A DNA stretch of 52,837 bases from Venenivibrio stagnispumantis (lineage in GTDB: Bacteria > Aquificota > Aquificia > Aquificales > Hydrogenothermaceae), in the NCBI RefSeq assembly GCF_900182795.1, contig NZ_FXTX01000011.1, forward strand, positions 1 to 52,837, read 5' to 3'. Within the stretch, counting starts at the first letter, position 1. Each line of letters starts with the position of its first letter. Below the pieces are notes generated by a model that was given only the letters and a program-made list of their open reading frames with translations, did not search any database and had not been told where the DNA came from. Below, piece by piece: positions 7,798 to 21,652 of the stretch. Position numbers and translations under genes: made by a program.

Positions 7798-10047
7798 ATG
7801 GAAGAAAAATTGTTATCTGCCCACGGATTAAATATTCAGGAGTATAAAAGAATTATAGAATTAATAGGTAGAGAGCCTAATGAAGTAGAACTTGGAGTTT
7901 TTGGAGCTTTATGGAGCGAGCATTGCTCTTATAAATCTTCCAAACCATTTTTAAAAGTTTTTCCTACAAAAGCTCCATGGGTATTACAGGGGCCGGGAGA
8001 AAATGCAGGAGTAGTCGAAATAGATGAAAATGTAGCAGTAGTATTTAAAGTAGAAAGCCATAATCATCCTTCTTATATAGAGCCATTTCATGGTGCTGCT
8101 ACCGGTGTTGGTGGAATAATAAGAGATATATTATCTATGGGAGCAAGACCGATAGCATTGGCAGATAGTTTAAGATTTGGAGATTTGAGAAATGATGGAA
8201 AAAGAAAAGGAATAAAAGATACAAAACCTATATTAAAAAGGGTTGTTGAAGGAATAGGCTTTTACGGTAATTGTATAGGAGTGCCTACTGTAGCAGGAGA
8301 AACGGTATTTGATGAAGTATATGCAGGAAACCCTCTTGTTAATGCTTTTTGTCTTGGAATATTAAAAAAGGATAAGATATATAGGGCAAGGGCAACAAAA
8401 ATAGGTCAAAAACTTGTTATGGTTGGCTCTTCTACCGGAAGAGATGGAATTCATGGAGCTACAATGGCATCTGCTGAATTCTCTGCTGAAACAGAATCAA
8501 AAAGACCAAATGTTCAGATAGGAGACCCATTTTTCGGAAAAAGATTAATAGAAGCAACCCTTGAGGTTATGGAAAAAAATCTAATAGCCGGATGTCAGGA
8601 TTTTGGAGCAGCAGGACTTGCAGGCTCAACATCAGAATTTGGTGCAAAATCCAAAATGGGTGTAAATGTTTATCTTGAAAATGTTCCCCTCAGAGAAGAA
8701 GGTATGACTCCTTATGAGATATTACTTTCAGAATCACAAGAAAGAATGCTTTATGCAGTAGATGAAGAAAATGTAGAAGAAGTTATAAAAATAGCCAAAA
8801 AACACGGCTTAGAAGCAGCAGTGATAGGAGAAACAACCGAAGGAAATAGATTAAAAGTATATTACAAAGACCAGATAGTTGTTGATTTACCTATATCTGC
8901 GATAGTAGATGATGCACCGGTATATGATAGACCGAGAAAAGAGCCATCTTATCTAAAAAAAGTAAAATCTTTTAACCAAGATGAACTACCGAAAGTAGAT
9001 TTAAAAGAAGCTATAACAAAAATAATATCTTCTTTAAATATAGCAGATAAAAGCTGGGTTTATAGCCAGTATGACCACGAAGTTGGAACAAATACGGTAG
9101 TTAAACCCGGTAGCGATGCTGCAATAATTAGATTAAAATGGCCTGCAAGACCGGAGCTTTACTCTGAAAAAGCGATTGCAATATCTTCCGATGGAAATGG
9201 AAAATGGGTTTATTTAGACCCTTATGAAGGTGGAAAAAGAGTAGTAACAGAAAGTATAAGAAATTTATATGTATCCGGAGCAAAACCTCTTGCAATTACG
9301 GATTGTATAAACTGGGGAAATCCGGAAAATCCTGAGATATTATGGCAACTTGAACAAGCAACAAAAGGCATGGCAAAAGCCTGTGAAGAACTAAACACAC
9401 CGGTAATAGGTGGAAATGTATCTTTATATAATGAAACAGTTTTAGAAGATAAAAGAATAAATATCTATCCAACACCTGTCGTAGTAGCAGTAGGAGTATT
9501 AGACAAACCTGAATATGCTATCCCCTCATTTTATCAATCAGAAGGAAATTATATTGCAATCGTAGGAGAAATTGATAAAAAACCAAATATAGCAGGAAGT
9601 GAGTTTTTAAAAGAAATTCACGGAAAAGTAGCCGGTGATATTGGAGAAACAAACCTAACCGTAGAGAAAAAATTATTATCATTTATCTTAAGCAATAGAG
9701 AATATATAAAATCTGCCCATGATGTGTCAGATGGTGGATTAATTACAGCTCTCTTAGAGCCTGCATTTGAAAAAGATTTAGGTATTGATATAACAATTAA
9801 TACTCCTTACAGAGAAGATTTTGAGCTATTTGATGAGCTTCGCAGTATTATAGTAATCTCTATATCAGAAAAAGATATTTCAAAACTTGAAGAAGAAGCC
9901 AAAAAAAATGAGATAGGATTTAGAATAATCGGAAAAATTACAGATGATAAAAAATTCAAACTAAAAATTAATGATATACAAATAGAAGAAGATATAAGAA
10001 AGCTAAAACAGCTTTGGAAAGAAGGATTTAAAAAATATGTCATCTAA
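7798..10047 (+). CDS. purL: phosphoribosylformylglycinamidine synthase subunit PurL
   Basis: The start is set at ATG 7798, preceded by AGGAG at 7782-7786; an upstream in-frame TTG at 7777 would overlap that site. The 749-residue product is a small-type PurL, which works with separate PurQ and PurS to convert FGAR to FGAM in purine synthesis. Landmarks are SEHCSYKSSKPFL near the N-terminus, the ATP/Mg segments FKVESHNHPS and GAATGVGGI, and GGNVSLYNET in the second half. Both AIRS-type halves are complete. purQ and purS are not in the window. The stop overlaps the next gene by 11 bases. Confidence 0.95.
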   Translation: MEEKLLSAHGLNIQEYKRIIELIGREPNEVELGVFGALWSEHCSYKSSKPFLKVFPTKAPWVLQGPGENAGVVEIDENVAVVFKVESHNHPSYIEPFHGAATGVGGIIRDILSMGARPIALADSLRFGDLRNDGKRKGIKDTKPILKRVVEGIGFYGNCIGVPTVAGETVFDEVYAGNPLVNAFCLGILKKDKIYRARATKIGQKLVMVGSSTGRDGIHGATMASAEFSAETESKRPNVQIGDPFFGKRLIEATLEVMEKNLIAGCQDFGAAGLAGSTSEFGAKSKMGVNVYLENVPLREEGMTPYEILLSESQERMLYAVDEENVEEVIKIAKKHGLEAAVIGETTEGNRLKVYYKDQIVVDLPISAIVDDAPVYDRPRKEPSYLKKVKSFNQDELPKVDLKEAITKIISSLNIADKSWVYSQYDHEVGTNTVVKPGSDAAIIRLKWPARPELYSEKAIAISSDGNGKWVYLDPYEGGKRVVTESIRNLYVSGAKPLAITDCINWGNPENPEILWQLEQATKGMAKACEELNTPVIGGNVSLYNETVLEDKRINIYPTPVVVAVGVLDKPEYAIPSFYQSEGNYIAIVGEIDKKPNIAGSEFLKEIHGKVAGDIGETNLTVEKKLLSFILSNREYIKSAHDVSDGGLITALLEPAFEKDLGIDITINTPYREDFELFDELRSIIVISISEKDISKLEEEAKKNEIGFRIIGKITDDKKFKLKINDIQIEEDIRKLKQLWKEGFKKYVI

Positions 10048-13957: not shown

Positions 13958-15535
13958 TTACATTTCTTGCAATGCTTTTACAGATAAGCCTTTTTCTTTA
14001 AAAGACTCTATAGCTATAACAGCAGCATTTGCTCCCCTTATTGTAGTAAAGTAAGGGACTTTATTTGATACAGCGGCTCTTCTTATATAGTAAGCATCTG
14101 ACCTTTCTCTTTTTCCGGAAGGTGTGTTTATAATCATTACAATTTCTCCATTTCTTATTCTATCTACAATATTTGGTCTTTCTTCTGAAAGTTTATTTAC
14201 AAGGTTAGATTCTATATCATTTTGTTTCAAGAATATATGGGTTCCTTTTGTAGCATATATAACAAAACCAAGATTTATTAATTTTTTTGCTATTTCAACT
14301 ATCTGTGGTTTATCTTTATCTGCTACTGATATAAAAACATTACCGGAATCAGGAAGTAATGCTCCTGTTCCTGCCTGTGCCTTATAATATGCAAGACCAA
14401 AATCTTCATCTATTCCCATTACTTCTCCGGTGCTTTTCATTTCAGGCCCTAAGATAGGGTCAACTTCCGGAAATCTATTAAATGGAAATACAACTTCTTT
14501 TACAGCATATCTTTTAAAGCTTTTTGGTAAGAAATCAGATGCCGGATGTTTTTCCTCTATATTAAAAACTTCAGGTACAATTTCCCTTAATTTTTTACCT
14601 ATCATAACTTTTGAAGCAATTTTAGCAAGTGGGTATCCTATTGCTTTACTTACAAAAGGCACTGTTCTTGATGCCCTTGGATTTGCTTCAATAACATAAA
14701 TTTGGTTATCTTTTACTGCATACTGCACATTTATTAATCCTATGGTATTTAATGCCTTTGCAAGCTTTTTTGTTTGTTCTTTCACTTTCAGCACTATCTC
14801 ATCGGGAAGTGAATAATGGGGTATGCAAGTTGCACTATCTCCTGAATGTATTCCGGCTTCTTCTATATGCTCCATAACTGCTCCAACAAGGGCATCTTCT
14901 CCATCACAAACACAATCAACATCAAGCTCTATACTATCTGCCAAGAATCTATCAATAAGAAGCGGTTTATCTTCAGAAACAAATACAGCTTCTTCTATAT
15001 ATTGTAAAAGCTCAGTTTCATCATAAACAAGTCTCATTGCCCTTCCACCAAGGACATAAGAAGGTCTAACCAATACAGGATAACCTATCTCATTAGCTAT
15101 TTTGATGGCTTCTTCTTTTGATTTTGCTATACCGCTTTCCGGCTGTTTTAATCCAAGTTTTATAATTAAATCTCTAAATCTTTCCCTATCTTCTGCTATA
15201 TCTATACTTTCCGGAGAAGTTCCTATTATGGGAACTCCGAATTTTTCAAGGGGTTTTGCAAGTTTAAGAGGTGTTTGACCACCAAACTGGACAACAACTC
15301 CATCAGGTTTTTCTTTTTCTATTATGTTAAGAACATCTTCTAAAACAATAGGTTCAAAAAATAATTTATCAGAAGTGTCATAATCGGTTGAAACTGTTTC
15401 AGGATTGCAATTTACCATTATTGCCTGATATCCTTCTTCTATCAATGCCCATACACAATGGACACAGGCATAATCAAACTCAACTCCTTGACCTATTCTA
15501 TTTGGGCCACTACCAAGAATAATAACTTTTTTCAT
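13958..15535 (-). CDS. carB: carbamoyl-phosphate synthase large chain, separate C-terminal half
   Basis: The 525-residue protein starts at MKKVIILGSGPNRIGQG, which corresponds to the middle of a normal 1,070-residue CarB, and covers the second ATP-grasp synthetase domain plus the C-terminal MGS-like allosteric domain (about 385-525). The start has an AAGGAG site 9 bases upstream and tldD ends just before it, so this is not a broken gene with a lost 5' half. Split CarB is known in Aquifex and some methanogens. The N-terminal half and carA must be elsewhere. The enzyme supplies carbamoyl-phosphate for pyrimidines and arginine. Confidence 0.93.
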   Translation of the reverse strand: MKKVIILGSGPNRIGQGVEFDYACVHCVWALIEEGYQAIMVNCNPETVSTDYDTSDKLFFEPIVLEDVLNIIEKEKPDGVVVQFGGQTPLKLAKPLEKFGVPIIGTSPESIDIAEDRERFRDLIIKLGLKQPESGIAKSKEEAIKIANEIGYPVLVRPSYVLGGRAMRLVYDETELLQYIEEAVFVSEDKPLLIDRFLADSIELDVDCVCDGEDALVGAVMEHIEEAGIHSGDSATCIPHYSLPDEIVLKVKEQTKKLAKALNTIGLINVQYAVKDNQIYVIEANPRASRTVPFVSKAIGYPLAKIASKVMIGKKLREIVPEVFNIEEKHPASDFLPKSFKRYAVKEVVFPFNRFPEVDPILGPEMKSTGEVMGIDEDFGLAYYKAQAGTGALLPDSGNVFISVADKDKPQIVEIAKKLINLGFVIYATKGTHIFLKQNDIESNLVNKLSEERPNIVDRIRNGEIVMIINTPSGKRERSDAYYIRRAAVSNKVPYFTTIRGANAAVIAIESFKEKGLSVKALQEM

Positions 15536-16962: not shown

Positions 16963-17799
16963 TTATTTAACAACAATATTTATAATTTTTCCACCGGCAA
17001 ATATTATTTTTACAATTTCTTTTCCTTCTATCCATTTTTGCACATTTTCCAATGCTAACTTTTTTATTTCTTCTTCCGGCATATCAACTTTAACTTTAAT
17101 AGTTGTTCTGACTTTACCATTTATCTGAACCGGTATTTCCTTTTCAGTTTCTTTTATTGCTTCCTCATCTGCTATCGGGAATAGATAATTTATAGTATAT
17201 CCTTCTTTACCTATTAATCTCCATAAATAATCGGCTATAAATGGTGTAAATGGAGATAACATTAATATTAGATTTTCTGCGACCTCTTTTAAAATTACCG
17301 GATTTTTAGATTTATAATCCGAGATTGCATTCATAAGTTCCATTATAGATGCTATTGCAGTATTAAATTGGAGATTTTTTTCTATATCAGACCTAACTTT
17401 TTTTATCGTTTGGTGGAGTTTTCTTCTTATTGCTAAATCTTCTTCATTTAATTCTTTTTTTTCTTCAGATTTTATCAAATCCAAATTTTCAGTTATAAAA
17501 TTCCATACCCTTTTTAAAAATCTATGGGCTCCTTCTATCCCACTTTCTATCCAATCAAAATTATTTTCCGGTGGAGCAGCAAAAAGTATATATAATCTCA
17601 CTGTATCTGCTCCATATTTTGAAATCATCTCATCCGGGTCAACTGTATTATGCTTAGATTTAGACATTTTATCAGATTTTCCATATTTTTCTTCTAATTT
17701 TGATAAAATCTGAATATCTAAGTTAAGTTTTTCAAATAATAACTTAGCATTATCATTTAATGTAAGATGATTTTTTTCTAAAAATTCTTTTAACTTCAT
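16963..17799 (-). CDS. leuS: leucyl-tRNA synthetase beta subunit (split LeuRS)
   Basis: The start is ATG 17799 after an AGAGGTG site; a GTG two codons earlier lies within that site. The 278-residue product contains the KMSKS loop (DKMSKSKHNTVDPDE), the anticodon-binding helices (RFLKRVWNFI through ADYLWRLIG) and the C-terminal domain. It lacks the HIGH motif and editing domain. This is the beta subunit layout of the Aquifex heterodimeric LeuRS, where alpha holds the HIGH and editing parts. The alpha gene is not in the window. No decayed 5' half lies upstream, so the split is natural. Together this is a strong Aquificota marker. Confidence 0.93.
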   Translation of the reverse strand: MKLKEFLEKNHLTLNDNAKLLFEKLNLDIQILSKLEEKYGKSDKMSKSKHNTVDPDEMISKYGADTVRLYILFAAPPENNFDWIESGIEGAHRFLKRVWNFITENLDLIKSEEKKELNEEDLAIRRKLHQTIKKVRSDIEKNLQFNTAIASIMELMNAISDYKSKNPVILKEVAENLILMLSPFTPFIADYLWRLIGKEGYTINYLFPIADEEAIKETEKEIPVQINGKVRTTIKVKVDMPEEEIKKLALENVQKWIEGKEIVKIIFAGGKIINIVVK

Positions 17800-17875
17800 A
17801 AACACCTCTTAAATTACATATAAATTATTGTTTATTTTATCATAGGATAAAGATGAAGTGAAGAAGAGAAGAAAA

Positions 17876-18409
17876 TTAAAGATTTTTTGATATTTCTTCT
17901 AAAAGTTCCAGCAAAACTGTTTTAACATTTTCTTTATCAGTAGCTATAAGTGGAAGAACTTTTACAGATTCATCAAGATCAAGGGCAGTTCTTATATCTT
18001 CCGGACTCCATGCTCCTTTTAAATCTTGTTTATTACATCCAACCACAAAAGGAGCAGGATAACGGGATTCAAAATAGTTTATAATCTTCCTTGCTTCATG
18101 AAATGTAGCAGGGTCAGTGCTATCAACCAAAACGACTAATCCAACCATCCCTTTACCAAGGATATCCCACATAAAATCAAATCTCGATTGACCCGGTGTT
18201 CCAAATAGATATAATGTATGCTCATCATCTATTTTAATCCTTCCAAAATCCATCGCTACAGTAGTATAATCTTTAACATTTTTCTCATCTGATTTTGAGG
18301 TTCTTGCCTCTGTTTTTACCGTTTCAATTTCGCTTATAGTATTTATAAATTGAGTTTTTCCGGCAGCAAAAGGACCAGATACAACTATTTTTATCTTTTT
18401 TTCTGCCAT
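17876..18409 (-). CDS. Ras-like small GTPase (CvnD/MglA-type)
   Basis: The 177-residue protein has the G-motifs of the bacterial small GTPase group seen in actinobacterial conservons (CvnD) and related to MglA: P-loop GPFAAGKT (12-19), switch I threonines in DYTTVAMDFG (about 47-56), FGTPGQ (69-74) in place of DxxG, and NKQDL (126-130). Proteins of this group cycle between GTP and GDP forms and are paired with roadblock proteins that act as regulators. It is the last of six genes whose inner gaps are only 1-4 bases for the last four joints. No membrane anchor is visible. Confidence 0.88.
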   Translation of the reverse strand: MAEKKIKIVVSGPFAAGKTQFINTISEIETVKTEARTSKSDEKNVKDYTTVAMDFGRIKIDDEHTLYLFGTPGQSRFDFMWDILGKGMVGLVVLVDSTDPATFHEARKIINYFESRYPAPFVVGCNKQDLKGAWSPEDIRTALDLDESVKVLPLIATDKENVKTVLLELLEEISKNL

Positions 18410-18412
18410 CTT

Positions 18413-19111
18413 TTATAACCCTCTTATTTTATCCATAATCTTCTTTAATAAAACCTTAGTTAAATCAAAACCTATTTTTCTTTTTTCCGGTTTATATCTT
18501 TTTATAATTCCGGATGCTAAAAATCCATATAAAGCTCTTTTTACTGCTAATTCAGGCAATTTTAATTTTTCTATTATATCGGCTACTTTGTTTTTTCCGT
18601 CTATCAGATGTAATATTCTTTTTTCTATATCTGTAAGATATGCTTTTTTTGCTATTTCTTCCCAATTCTCACTTTTTTCAAAAATAAGACCTAAATCCGA
18701 AATTTTTCTATCAACCTCTTCAGGAGATAACTGTCTACTTAAATACATTATTAACTTCTCGGTAGGAATTTGGGATTTTATATCCGGTGGATACTTGATA
18801 AATCCGGTCGTGAAAGAAAATCTTCCTTCTTTTATTGCAAGAAGGTTAGGTAATCTTGATACTGTAATCTGATACATCTGCTCCCTTGTTATATTATCCT
18901 TTTTTAGAACTGTTTCAAAATCTATATCTAAATAAACATAAAATACTTTTTTAACTTCTCTTATATAAAGAATATCTCCTTCTTTAAAATAAATTGCAAA
19001 AACCCCATCATCTTTTTTCTCTATAACAAGAATTCCATCTTTTTTATCTTTTTTTATAATTTGAAAGATATCAACAAAGTTAAAAACAGAAAGGTCACCA
19101 GCTATAGCCAT
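18413..19111 (-). CDS. DUF4388-domain protein with C-terminal winged-helix-like region
   Basis: This 232-residue protein starts with the DUF4388/PatA-N pattern (GDLSVFNFVDIFQIIKKDKK, then IYFKEGDILYIRE), a domain common in bacterial two-component and gliding signalling proteins. Residues about 165-215 (LTDIEKRILHLIDGKNKVAD, then LAVKRALYGFLASGIIKRY) look like a winged-helix module. It sits between the roadblock gene (4 bases) and the GTPase gene (3 bases). In conservons the small DUF742 protein CvnC occupies this place, so an adaptor or output role is a fair guess. No enzyme motif was seen. Confidence 0.78.
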   Translation of the reverse strand: MAIAGDLSVFNFVDIFQIIKKDKKDGILVIEKKDDGVFAIYFKEGDILYIREVKKVFYVYLDIDFETVLKKDNITREQMYQITVSRLPNLLAIKEGRFSFTTGFIKYPPDIKSQIPTEKLIMYLSRQLSPEEVDRKISDLGLIFEKSENWEEIAKKAYLTDIEKRILHLIDGKNKVADIIEKLKLPELAVKRALYGFLASGIIKRYKPEKRKIGFDLTKVLLKKIMDKIRGL

Positions 19112-19115
19112 TTTA

Positions 19116-19475
19116 TTATCCCAATTCCTGTTCTAATTTTTTTATAGCTCTTTGTATTTCCATAAGTAATAATCCAAGCTTTGCATTTGAAGGAGCTAAA
19201 ACTCCAAGAACTGCTAAATCTTTAACACCGGTAAATATAACATATCCTTTTGAACCTTTTATATAAACCTGTTCCAATAATCCTTTATTTAGCTCGGTAT
19301 TAACTCTTTCTGCAAGAGACAAAATAGCAGCCCCCATTGCAGAAACCCTATCTTCATCAATAGATGGTGGCAAGACAGATGAAATAGGTAATCCATCTAC
19401 ACTAACTAAAACACATCCTTCAGCTCCGGCTTCTCTAACTAACATTTCCAAGGTTTCTTGAAATTTATTTGCCAT
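19116..19475 (-). CDS. roadblock/LC7 domain protein (CvnB/MglB-like)
   Basis: At 119 residues this is a single roadblock/LC7 domain: an N-terminal helix, GCVLVSVDGLPISS, the long helix SAMGAAILSLAERVN, then KGYVIFTGVKDLAVLGVLAP and a C-terminal helix. Roadblock proteins dimerise and control Ras-like GTPases, as MglB does for MglA and CvnB for CvnD. The GTPase gene is two genes downstream in the same operon. The gene starts one base after the upstream linker-protein stop. Confidence 0.88.
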   Translation of the reverse strand: MANKFQETLEMLVREAGAEGCVLVSVDGLPISSVLPPSIDEDRVSAMGAAILSLAERVNTELNKGLLEQVYIKGSKGYVIFTGVKDLAVLGVLAPSNAKLGLLLMEIQRAIKKLEQELG

Positions 19476-19476
19476 T

Positions 19477-20475
19477 TTATTCCTCCAATATATATTTAAT
19501 ATTTTCCAAGAATTTATTTCTTCTTTCTATGTTAGATATTTCTTCGGCAAGTTTATCTATAAATTTAGTTAACTGATTTTTTGTTAATTTATTGTTGTAA
19601 CTTGATAATTCTTTTTTAAAAATAAAATTACCTATTGGACCTATCTCTTTTATAAATGCCTTTTTTATATCTTCTATGGTTTTATCATCCAAATATATTT
19701 CTTCTTTCTTTTCTGTTGTTAATATTTCTTCAATGTCAGGGTTTTTTTCTTCTGCTTGCAAAATCTCTTCAAGGGATGGGATTTTTTCTTCTGACTTTTC
19801 TTTTGATATATCTAATTCTTTTGCAAGAGTTTCTTCTTCCTGAACAGATAATATATCTTCAAGGGATGGTAATTTTTCTTCTTCTTGAATAAAAGAATTT
19901 TCTGTTTGTGTAGATAAGATATCCTCTAATGTTGGCTCTATTTGAGAAGAAGATGTTTTTTCAAGTATTTCTTCTAAGCTTTCCGTTTGCTCTGTAAAAA
20001 AGTGATTATCAACTAATCCTTTTTCCAATTCTTTTTTTATAGTTTCATCTATTTCAGGTTCTTTTTGAGTTTCCGGCTGTGTAGCAGGTTTTTGCTCTAA
20101 TTTTTCATACTGGACAAGCTCATCTTTTAGTAGTAATATCTTTTGTGATATATTTTGTGCTTCTATTTTAAATGTTGGAAGATGTGATTTTGAAAAATTT
20201 ATAAATATAATAGCCAAATCCTTAGATGTATAATATAAAAAGATTGTTATATTTTTATTTTCTGCAAAAAGATACTCTTCTTCAAAACCCGGTATTACTT
20301 CATTTATATCTAATGCTCTTTCCACAAATATTGCCAAATTAACAAAAAATCGTTCTGAACCTATATTTCCTTTATATTCAATTATTTTTCCTTTATAATA
20401 AACTGCTATAAAATCTATCTTTAGATTTAGATAAGCATCTGTCAAAATGTTTTTTATTTTATCTGATATATTCAT
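19477..20475 (-). CDS. roadblock-like protein with repetitive acidic linker
   Basis: I do not recognise this 332-residue protein as a whole. Residues 1-120 have the strand/helix order of a second roadblock/longin-like domain (IDFIAVYYKGKIIEYKG, a helix, then ITIFLYY and LAIIFINFSK). Residues 130-260 are acidic and probably disordered, and contain five copies of a short motif: ESLEEIL (165), PTLEDIL (181), PSLEDIL (203), PSLEEIL (233), PDIEEIL (246). Residues 264-325 (IGPIGNFIF, then LAEEISNIERRNKFL) resemble a C-terminal module found after some bacterial Ser/Thr kinases; that match is from memory. It may be a scaffold for the GTPase system. Gaps of one base join it to both neighbours. Confidence 0.7.
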   Translation of the reverse strand: MNISDKIKNILTDAYLNLKIDFIAVYYKGKIIEYKGNIGSERFFVNLAIFVERALDINEVIPGFEEEYLFAENKNITIFLYYTSKDLAIIFINFSKSHLPTFKIEAQNISQKILLLKDELVQYEKLEQKPATQPETQKEPEIDETIKKELEKGLVDNHFFTEQTESLEEILEKTSSSQIEPTLEDILSTQTENSFIQEEEKLPSLEDILSVQEEETLAKELDISKEKSEEKIPSLEEILQAEEKNPDIEEILTTEKKEEIYLDDKTIEDIKKAFIKEIGPIGNFIFKKELSSYNNKLTKNQLTKFIDKLAEEISNIERRNKFLENIKYILEE

Positions 20476-20476
20476 T

Positions 20477-20845
20477 TTATAACTCGCCTTTTTCTAACTT
20501 CTCCATTATAGTTTTCATACTTATTCTCATTCTTTCAAATGACTCAGCAAGTTCTGACAGTTCATCATTCCCTTCAATTTTAACTTCTGTATCTAAATTA
20601 CCCATACTAACTTCATTCATAGCATTCACAACTTTTTTTATCTTTGATATTATCAATCTATCCATTAAAATTCTTATCATATATACCGGTAAAATGAAAA
20701 ATATTTGAGATATTACTATTGATATAAGAGCTTTTGATAAATCATTGGTTAAGAAAAAAACAAGAACACCAACGAGTACAGCACCAATGAAAGAACCTCC
20801 GAGAACTATAAAAAATATCTGGTCTAAAATGGATTTTTTATTCAT
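20477..20845 (-). CDS. HAMP-only membrane protein
   Basis: The 122-residue protein has two membrane helices (about 10-32 and 38-57) and a HAMP domain (about 58-112) with the typical proline at residue 53 and the MGNLDTEV and DELSELAESFERM pattern. It stops just after the second HAMP helix, with no kinase, methyl-accepting or cyclase output. The periplasmic loop is only about five residues, so it probably senses through the membrane or via partners. In conservons the first gene is a HAMP-containing histidine kinase; this would be a kinase-less counterpart. An ATG with a GAGGGG site follows the ODP-like gene after 33 bases. Confidence 0.83.
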   Translation of the reverse strand: MNKKSILDQIFFIVLGGSFIGAVLVGVLVFFLTNDLSKALISIVISQIFFILPVYMIRILMDRLIISKIKKVVNAMNEVSMGNLDTEVKIEGNDELSELAESFERMRISMKTIMEKLEKGEL

Positions 20846-20878
20846 AATACATACCCCTCAAATTATTATATTATATCA

Positions 20879-21652
20879 TTATCCTTCAAATCTTGTTGTT
20901 GGAATTTTATAAACATCATCCATAATATCAACACCTGTTTGAAGATTTTCAACCCAATTTATAAATTTATTAACCATATCTTTACCTTTAAATATTGCTC
21001 CGTGCTGTGGTGCTATCATTTCTATATCAAGCAGTCTTACCATTTTAGCCCAATTCTTCAAAGCCCTTGAGCTTGCTATATATCTTTTGTGAAATCCTTC
21101 CATATATTTTATATGTTCTTCAAAATTTTCCACAAATATATAATCTTGACCGAGGGAAGCCCCTAAATCTCCGGAATACAAAATTTTAGATACAGGATCA
21201 TAGACCTGAAAATTTCCCGGTGAATGGAGCCAATGGGCAGGAATAATATATAAATCAGATTGTCCTAATCTAACAATTGTTCCGGAATCATCTATCGGTT
21301 TAATCCTATCTACAACTAATCTGTCAACACCAAAATGAGGTATAAATCTTATCCATAATTTTGAAGCAAGTGCAGTAGCTTTTGTTGTCATCAACCATCC
21401 ATTAGCAGCTGCAACAATATCAGGATCTTGATGAGAAAAAAGTATATATTTAAGATTATCTATACCTATAAGCACCCCTATTTCTTGTAGAAGATGTTTG
21501 AAAACTTTATGTCCACCTGGGTCTAAAATCATACCTTCTCCACTATCTACTATAAAATGAACATTAGCCTGAACCATTTCTCCATGTCCAAAATCTTCAA
21601 GTAAGATATTTTTATGAACTCCGTTGTCAAATAAGACAGTCTGATTTTCCAT
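20879..21652 (-). CDS. ODP-like MBL-fold di-iron protein
   Basis: The 257-residue protein is a flavodiiron-type metallo-beta-lactamase domain without the flavodoxin part. Metal ligands visible are HQDPD (H74, D76, D78), H143 in AHWLHSPGNF, D162 in YSGDLG and H227 in APQHG. The HxDxD form, rather than HxExD of flavodiiron NO/O2 reductases, matches the ODP group of oxygen- or iron-sensing di-iron proteins, one of which acts in spirochete chemotaxis. It heads the GTPase operon with an AAGGAGG site (21663-21669). A sensor role is inferred; a hydrolase or reductase role cannot be excluded. Confidence 0.8.
   Translation of the reverse strand: MENQTVLFDNGVHKNILLEDFGHGEMVQANVHFIVDSGEGMILDPGGHKVFKHLLQEIGVLIGIDNLKYILFSHQDPDIVAAANGWLMTTKATALASKLWIRFIPHFGVDRLVVDRIKPIDDSGTIVRLGQSDLYIIPAHWLHSPGNFQVYDPVSKILYSGDLGASLGQDYIFVENFEEHIKYMEGFHKRYIASSRALKNWAKMVRLLDIEMIAPQHGAIFKGKDMVNKFINWVENLQTGVDIMDDVYKIPTTRFEG

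Follow-up and report, generated by a model that had tools for sequence, protein, structure and literature searches.

How did the gene of an iron/oxygen sensor come to head an operon for a Ras-like GTPase, and does the sensor act on the GTPase? This question was raised by a stretch of 52,837 nucleotides (the window) from Venenivibrio stagnispumantis, assembly GCF_900182795.1, contig NZ_FXTX01000011.1, positions 1-52,837, which is part of the 1.56 Mb genome of a thermophilic bacterium of the phylum Aquificota. An earlier note on this DNA had described six co-directional genes at 17876-21652, separated by gaps of 33, 1, 1, 4 and 3 bp; all six open reading frames were found, on the minus strand, and the domains turned out as guessed there. 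Beginning at the operon head, the genes encode an oxygen-binding di-iron protein (ODP), a HAMP-only membrane protein, a protein with an extended linker (the linker protein), a roadblock protein, a DUF4388 protein and a small GTPase. In this lineage, the ODP gene changed its place within the genome: it left a cell-division cluster and became the first gene of the GTPase operon. As a whole, the operon is best explained by a kinase-free HAMP/double-roadblock GTPase switch with ODP as its iron/oxygen input, a reading to which we give about an even chance.

Relocation of the ODP gene

The gene at the operon head (20879..21652) encodes a stand-alone protein of 257 amino acids with a metallo-beta-lactamase (MBL) fold. 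It matched Pfam family PF19583 with 236.9 bits (cut-off 27.2) and PDB entry 6qrq, an oxygen-binding diiron protein, with E = 1.1e-71; furthermore, the metal-site positions HQDPD, H, SGD, FH and PQHG are retained. The suspected ODP-like di-iron MBL protein is thus a member of a characterised family of iron/oxygen sensors, and a di-iron site with the corresponding Fe/O2 chemistry can be predicted for it by homology.

Gene neighborhoods were compared in the family closest to the window genome (f1, which we take to be the Hydrogenothermaceae) and in a second family of the phylum (f2). In all 30 other f1 genomes examined (L083-L112), rsmH is the next gene after ODP and co-directional with it, usually at a distance of 0-2 bp or with an overlap; ftsL and ftsI come next on contigs that extend far enough. 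Upstream of ODP, c18 and mostly a SurA-like gene were found in 27/30 loci and a roadblock gene in 3/30. The division locus of the window genome (L135:5297-10008) has the order SurA-c18-rsmH-ftsL-ftsI; ODP is cleanly missing and c18 and rsmH overlap by 4 bp. The head of the f1 GTPase operon (L033-L055) consists of ndk (nucleoside diphosphate kinase), a gene for a DUF4149 membrane protein and HAMP in 20 of the 21 loci where it is resolved, in one case with a 2.3-kb insertion; the remaining locus has ndk-DUF4149, and HAMP was not detected there. In the window genome, the ndk-DUF4149 pair is found by itself, on a third contig (L136:6521-7430). A second ODP copy is absent, the gene being the sole PF19583 match in this genome, and in the ODP tree it clusters with its f1 orthologues, indicating vertical inheritance. 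Taken together, the vacated division locus, the solitary ndk-DUF4149 pair and the single, vertically inherited gene led us to conclude that ODP was relocated and took the place of ndk-DUF4149 at the operon head. An origin of the operon's ODP by horizontal transfer was rejected, because the tree groups the gene with family orthologues and the old site is empty. The relocated lineage is represented by one sequenced member in our sample.

ODP heads the GTPase operon in the window genome only, where the co-directional HAMP gene begins 33 bp downstream; in none of the 30 relatives does a co-directional signalling gene directly follow ODP. The earlier note had proposed a signalling module with ODP as an added sensor and had named, among the findings that would speak against it, an MBL gene lying apart from the GTPase genes in the majority of genomes. 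Such separation is what we observed, with ODP residing in the cell-division cluster of every relative examined; hence, a conserved six-gene module is unsupported.

ODP genes beside signalling and roadblock genes

A contig scan of genomes yielded 80 ODP loci (L138-L217), mostly outside Aquificota. Aquificaceae-type ODPs adjoin unrelated housekeeping genes, and tandem ODP pairs were noticed in seven loci, mostly of Marinospirillum. The next co-directional gene after ODP encodes a histidine kinase (28 loci), a methyl-accepting chemotaxis protein (MCP; 12 loci) or a GGDEF protein (7 loci). The MCPs found in this position outside the phylum are short. Signalling genes thus account for 47/80 direct neighbors as compared to 13/366 genes further away (Fisher 5e-30), a count slightly favorable to itself since the neighbor profiles were partly built from the same loci. 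Pfam confirmed the signalling partners in a sample of 18, three or four of which come from Aquificota. The survey suggests a simple rule: an ODP would be a detached sensor whose gene immediately precedes that of the output protein.

The ODP of T. denticola is an oxygen sensor for chemotaxis and is genetically coupled to an MCP without a sensing module of its own (PMC7666581, citing Muok et al. 2019). This pair, TDE2498 and TDE2496, has a sensor of the same protein family with the same active-site motifs, likewise encoded apart from its output (PMC7666581); its partner is an MCP acting on CheA, whereas the output of the window operon is a small GTPase. An ODP heading a HAMP/roadblock/GTPase operon fits the detached-sensor pattern with a new output, and its position hints that an iron/oxygen sensor could control a bacterial small GTPase. 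That a di-iron sensor was recruited as the input of a Ras-like GTPase through a kinase-free HAMP/double-roadblock relay, which would be a fourth class of ODP output next to histidine kinases, MCPs and diguanylate cyclases, is a possibility that we consider somewhat less likely than not.

Roadblock genes adjoin ODP elsewhere in the phylum. In three Sulfurihydrogenibium-like genomes (G100/G102/G104), a roadblock gene lies 16-44 bp upstream of ODP (L092:8765-9124, L086:8742-9101, L093:2088-2468). Its DNA identity to the operon roadblock gene is 91% for two of the pairs and 88% for the other one, the similarity spans little beyond the gene, and each copy beside ODP clusters with operon copies from its own clade. 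The ODP-side gene arose by a recent duplication of the roadblock gene of the operon. Together with the relocation of ODP, this amounts to two separate rearrangements in f1 that joined ODP and a roadblock gene. Thermovibrio-type genomes contain a distant ODP (~30% identical to the window ODP), and 9-12 bp behind it lies a roadblock gene convergent with a GTPase gene and two small unassigned genes; for the Thermovibrio-group neighbors at 7869-8357 and 7195-7872 of L138, an identity as roadblock or PATAN proteins was not confirmed. Within f1, both ODP and the operon GTPase occur in 29 genomes, neither in 6, ODP only in 5 and the GTPase only in 1 (a draft); the corresponding p = 6e-4 ignores kinship and draft incompleteness. 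The relocation, the roadblock duplicate, the Thermovibrio-type pair and the overall tendency of ODPs to pair with signalling outputs lend indirect support to a path from ODP to the GTPase; a coupling of ODP to roadblock/GTPase proteins is plausible and independently hinted at.

Several observations weigh against such a coupling. ODP is linked to the operon in one genome only; it precedes rsmH in 30/30 relatives and stands at the operon head in 0/21 f1 relatives with a resolved head. Furthermore, ODP-family genes occur without the GTPase in some genomes (G099, G101 and most of genus g14), and adjacency of ODP and roadblock genes was not seen outside Aquificota among the 80 ODP loci. Because ODP persists where the GTPase is missing and precedes rsmH in all 30 relatives examined, it presumably has another role or one exerted in trans. 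A single relocation can be neutral: ODP would then have been placed upstream of the GTPase operon by chance, would act alone and would share a promoter at most. The singular linkage, the regular site in the division cluster, the genomes with ODP and without the GTPase and the housekeeping neighbors of Aquificaceae-type ODPs all agree with this explanation. We nevertheless regard it as rather unlikely, since in three relatives a second, independent rearrangement brought a copy of the operon roadblock gene to the position just before ODP, ODP and a roadblock gene also form a pair in a third ODP lineage, and random landing at such sites is improbable in a genome with ~1,600 genes, a number estimated from its size.

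Conservation of the five-gene core

The order linker protein-roadblock-DUF4388-GTPase, with short gaps, is repeated in 23 f1 loci, and 23 homologues of the linker protein were counted in this family; the HAMP gene precedes the linker gene in every locus whose upstream part is available and was detected. The f2 genomes share the roadblock-DUF4388-GTPase core, which in some of them stands behind a coiled-coil membrane protein. The recurrence in f1 shows that the five-gene core (HAMP, linker protein, roadblock, DUF4388/PATAN and GTPase) is conserved across that family and is not a product of chance. In relatives, conservation thus holds for the five-gene part, and conservation of the six-gene order including ODP was rejected.

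The ndk-DUF4149 pair at the operon head of the 21 relatives with a resolved head also allows the explanation that the module reads the nucleotide or energy state of the cell; ancestral ndk would supply or report GTP to the GTPase, and ODP would be incidental. We consider this improbable, as the window genome retains the core although its ndk lies elsewhere, and the f2 operon lacks ndk. An even smaller probability is given to a role of ODP chiefly in cell division, as a partner in envelope or oxidative-stress functions, in which case the link with the GTPase would mirror control of growth or polarity by the latter: the tight, co-directional ODP-rsmH arrangement in 30/30 relatives speaks for it, but elsewhere ODPs pair with signalling proteins and not with division genes.

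The proteins of the core

The HAMP protein (20477..20845, 122 amino acids) matched Pfam HAMP with 46.1 bits; HisKA, HATPase and MCP output domains were absent from its Pfam matches. Hydropathy analysis revealed two hydrophobic segments connected by a very short loop, followed by HAMP and a short coil. Because it has almost no periplasmic part, the protein probably senses a cytoplasmic rather than a periplasmic input.

The linker protein (19477..20475, 332 amino acids) comprises a cryptic, predicted roadblock-fold N-domain, a disordered acidic linker and a C-terminal helical domain; it had no Pfam match, the C-terminal helices included. A profile of the N-domain retrieved just three matches at E<5 among all PDB sequences, all of them MglB (E 0.06-0.09). 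Single-sequence AlphaFold2 predicted, with moderate confidence, the order helix-strand-strand-helix-strand-strand-strand-helix, and the best Foldseek matches of this model were MglB chains (E 1.7e-5, target TM 0.75), which supersedes a weak profile-profile comparison with roadblock (probability 9%). The earlier guess of a roadblock-like protein is backed by this predicted fold. The acidic linker contains five [LI]-E-[ED]-I-L motifs (window 19711-19977, residues 167-255), which may represent a candidate multivalent binding motif. In looser form, these motifs persist in the linker proteins of relatives. The next gene (19116..19475) encodes a Roadblock/LC7 protein of the MglB type (119 amino acids; PF03259, 69.2 bits); hence, two proteins with a roadblock fold are very probably encoded in the operon.

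The DUF4388 (PATAN-type) protein (18413..19111, 232 amino acids; PF14332, 74.5 bits) has a C-terminal winged-helix-like region, and 7/14 of its orthologues matched the TrmB winged helix (best E 1.4e-5). Another DUF4388 protein is encoded in the window genome (G000:C7:23714-24085; L137:7697-8470), without an adjoining GTPase or roadblock gene.

Assignment of the GTPase

The last gene (17876..18409) encodes a small GTPase of the MglA family with 177 amino acids. Its Pfam matches were the Arf, Ras and ATP_bind_1 folds, its PDB match was MglA 3t12 (E 1.2e-7), and a match with E <= 1e-10 was found in 103/136 genomes of the phylum, usually an orthologue at 64-91% identity. The G1 motif is GPFAAGKT, TTV occupies the switch-1 region, and NKQD lies at residue 126; the predicted FGTPGQ is present, with TPGQ at residue 71. 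By homology, the protein may be expected to act as a switch.

In the published classification of the MglA family, Groups 1, 4 and 5 retain [NT]KxD in G4, whereas Group 2, the conservon GTPases, has NxFD, and Group 5 is known from Aquificae, at times adjoining PATAN genes (Wuichet and Sogaard-Andersen, PMC4316618). Group 1 is excluded by TTV and GTPGQ, Group 2 by NKQD in place of NxFD. As listed for Group 5, the window GTPase has no Arg beside the G2 Thr, GTPGQ in G3 and [NT]KxD in G4, and a roadblock gene lies within four genes, namely two genes upstream. By these motifs and neighbors, a Group 5-like MglA protein is the best assignment. The Thr in place of Arg at G2, the adjacent roadblock and PATAN (DUF4388) genes and the occurrence in Aquificae make up this likeness; compared with the passages on Group 5 consulted in PMC4316618, the operon has three additions: a HAMP-only membrane protein, another roadblock-fold protein whose linker is rich in motifs and, in this genome, ODP. 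Judged from these features, the five-gene core would be a Group-5-like MglA/roadblock/PATAN module that gained ODP, and a new variant of that kind.

The earlier note had also described a kinase-less HAMP/roadblock/adaptor/GTPase module with a conservon-like layout, and gene order and Pfam bear this out. Actinobacterial conservons (CvnA-D) share the order membrane HAMP protein-roadblock-adaptor-GTPase, and the roadblock gene in the GTPase operon corresponds to CvnB. CvnA, however, combines HAMP with a histidine kinase and a C-terminal LPxR, whereas the HAMP protein of the window lacks kinase domains. CvnC is a DUF742 protein; the similarity of the DUF4388 adaptor to DUF742 stayed below threshold (17.2 bits vs a cut-off of 27, E 0.0046), and as it was seen in 1/14 orthologues it was rejected as a conservon mark. 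That the operon is a true conservon minus its kinase can practically be dismissed despite the matching order and the faint DUF742 similarity, given NKQD in place of the Group 2 motif, the different phylum, the irreproducible DUF742 match and the absence of a kinase from any relative's operon.

Proposed mechanism

In the preferred reading, the operon would encode a kinase-free, membrane-anchored small-GTPase switch of the MglA/MglB type. The HAMP-only protein would hold the module at the membrane, and the MglB-like and linker proteins would set the state of the GTPase, as homology to roadblock regulators suggests. ODP, probably co-transcribed with the module, would most likely feed an iron/oxygen signal from the cytoplasm into it, a service that ODPs elsewhere appear to perform for kinases, MCPs or diguanylate cyclases; it may signal to the HAMP protein or to the roadblock proteins and thereby alter the GTPase cycle. 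The PATAN/winged-helix adaptor could relay the GTPase state to type IV pili or transcription. PATAN regulators of Synechocystis bind the pilus motor PilB (PMC12288463), and a type IV pilus output is therefore possible. The gene pilT was found in 134/136 genomes of the phylum, with two copies in the window genome, and its co-occurrence with the GTPase is uninformative.

For most MglA-type GTPases outside Myxococcus, the controlling input is, to our knowledge, not known. The MglA-MglB polarity switch of Myxococcus and Thermus, in which RomY stimulates MglB, shares with the window operon a GTPase with a roadblock regulator and two-part regulation (PMC9481161); it differs by Group 1 catalysis with an intrinsic Arg, by TVPGQ and by having neither a HAMP protein nor ODP. 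The operon presents a kinase-free conservon layout, in a family in which a defined metal sensor came to lie with roadblock genes on two occasions, and it offers a small thermostable system whose input, regulators and GTPase can all be purified for testing.

Expression signals and downstream genes

A promoter/terminator scan revealed promoter-like sites no more often than in shuffles (27 vs 25.9) and 2 terminator-like sites vs 1.2 in shuffles, both within genes. A purine-rich stretch precedes the start codon in most of the six operon genes. Downstream of the operon lie a leucyl-tRNA-synthetase-like fragment of 280 amino acids with KMSKS (16963-17805) and the C-terminal half only of the carbamoyl-phosphate synthase large subunit (13958-15535). 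Both are split genes, such as occur in Aquifex.

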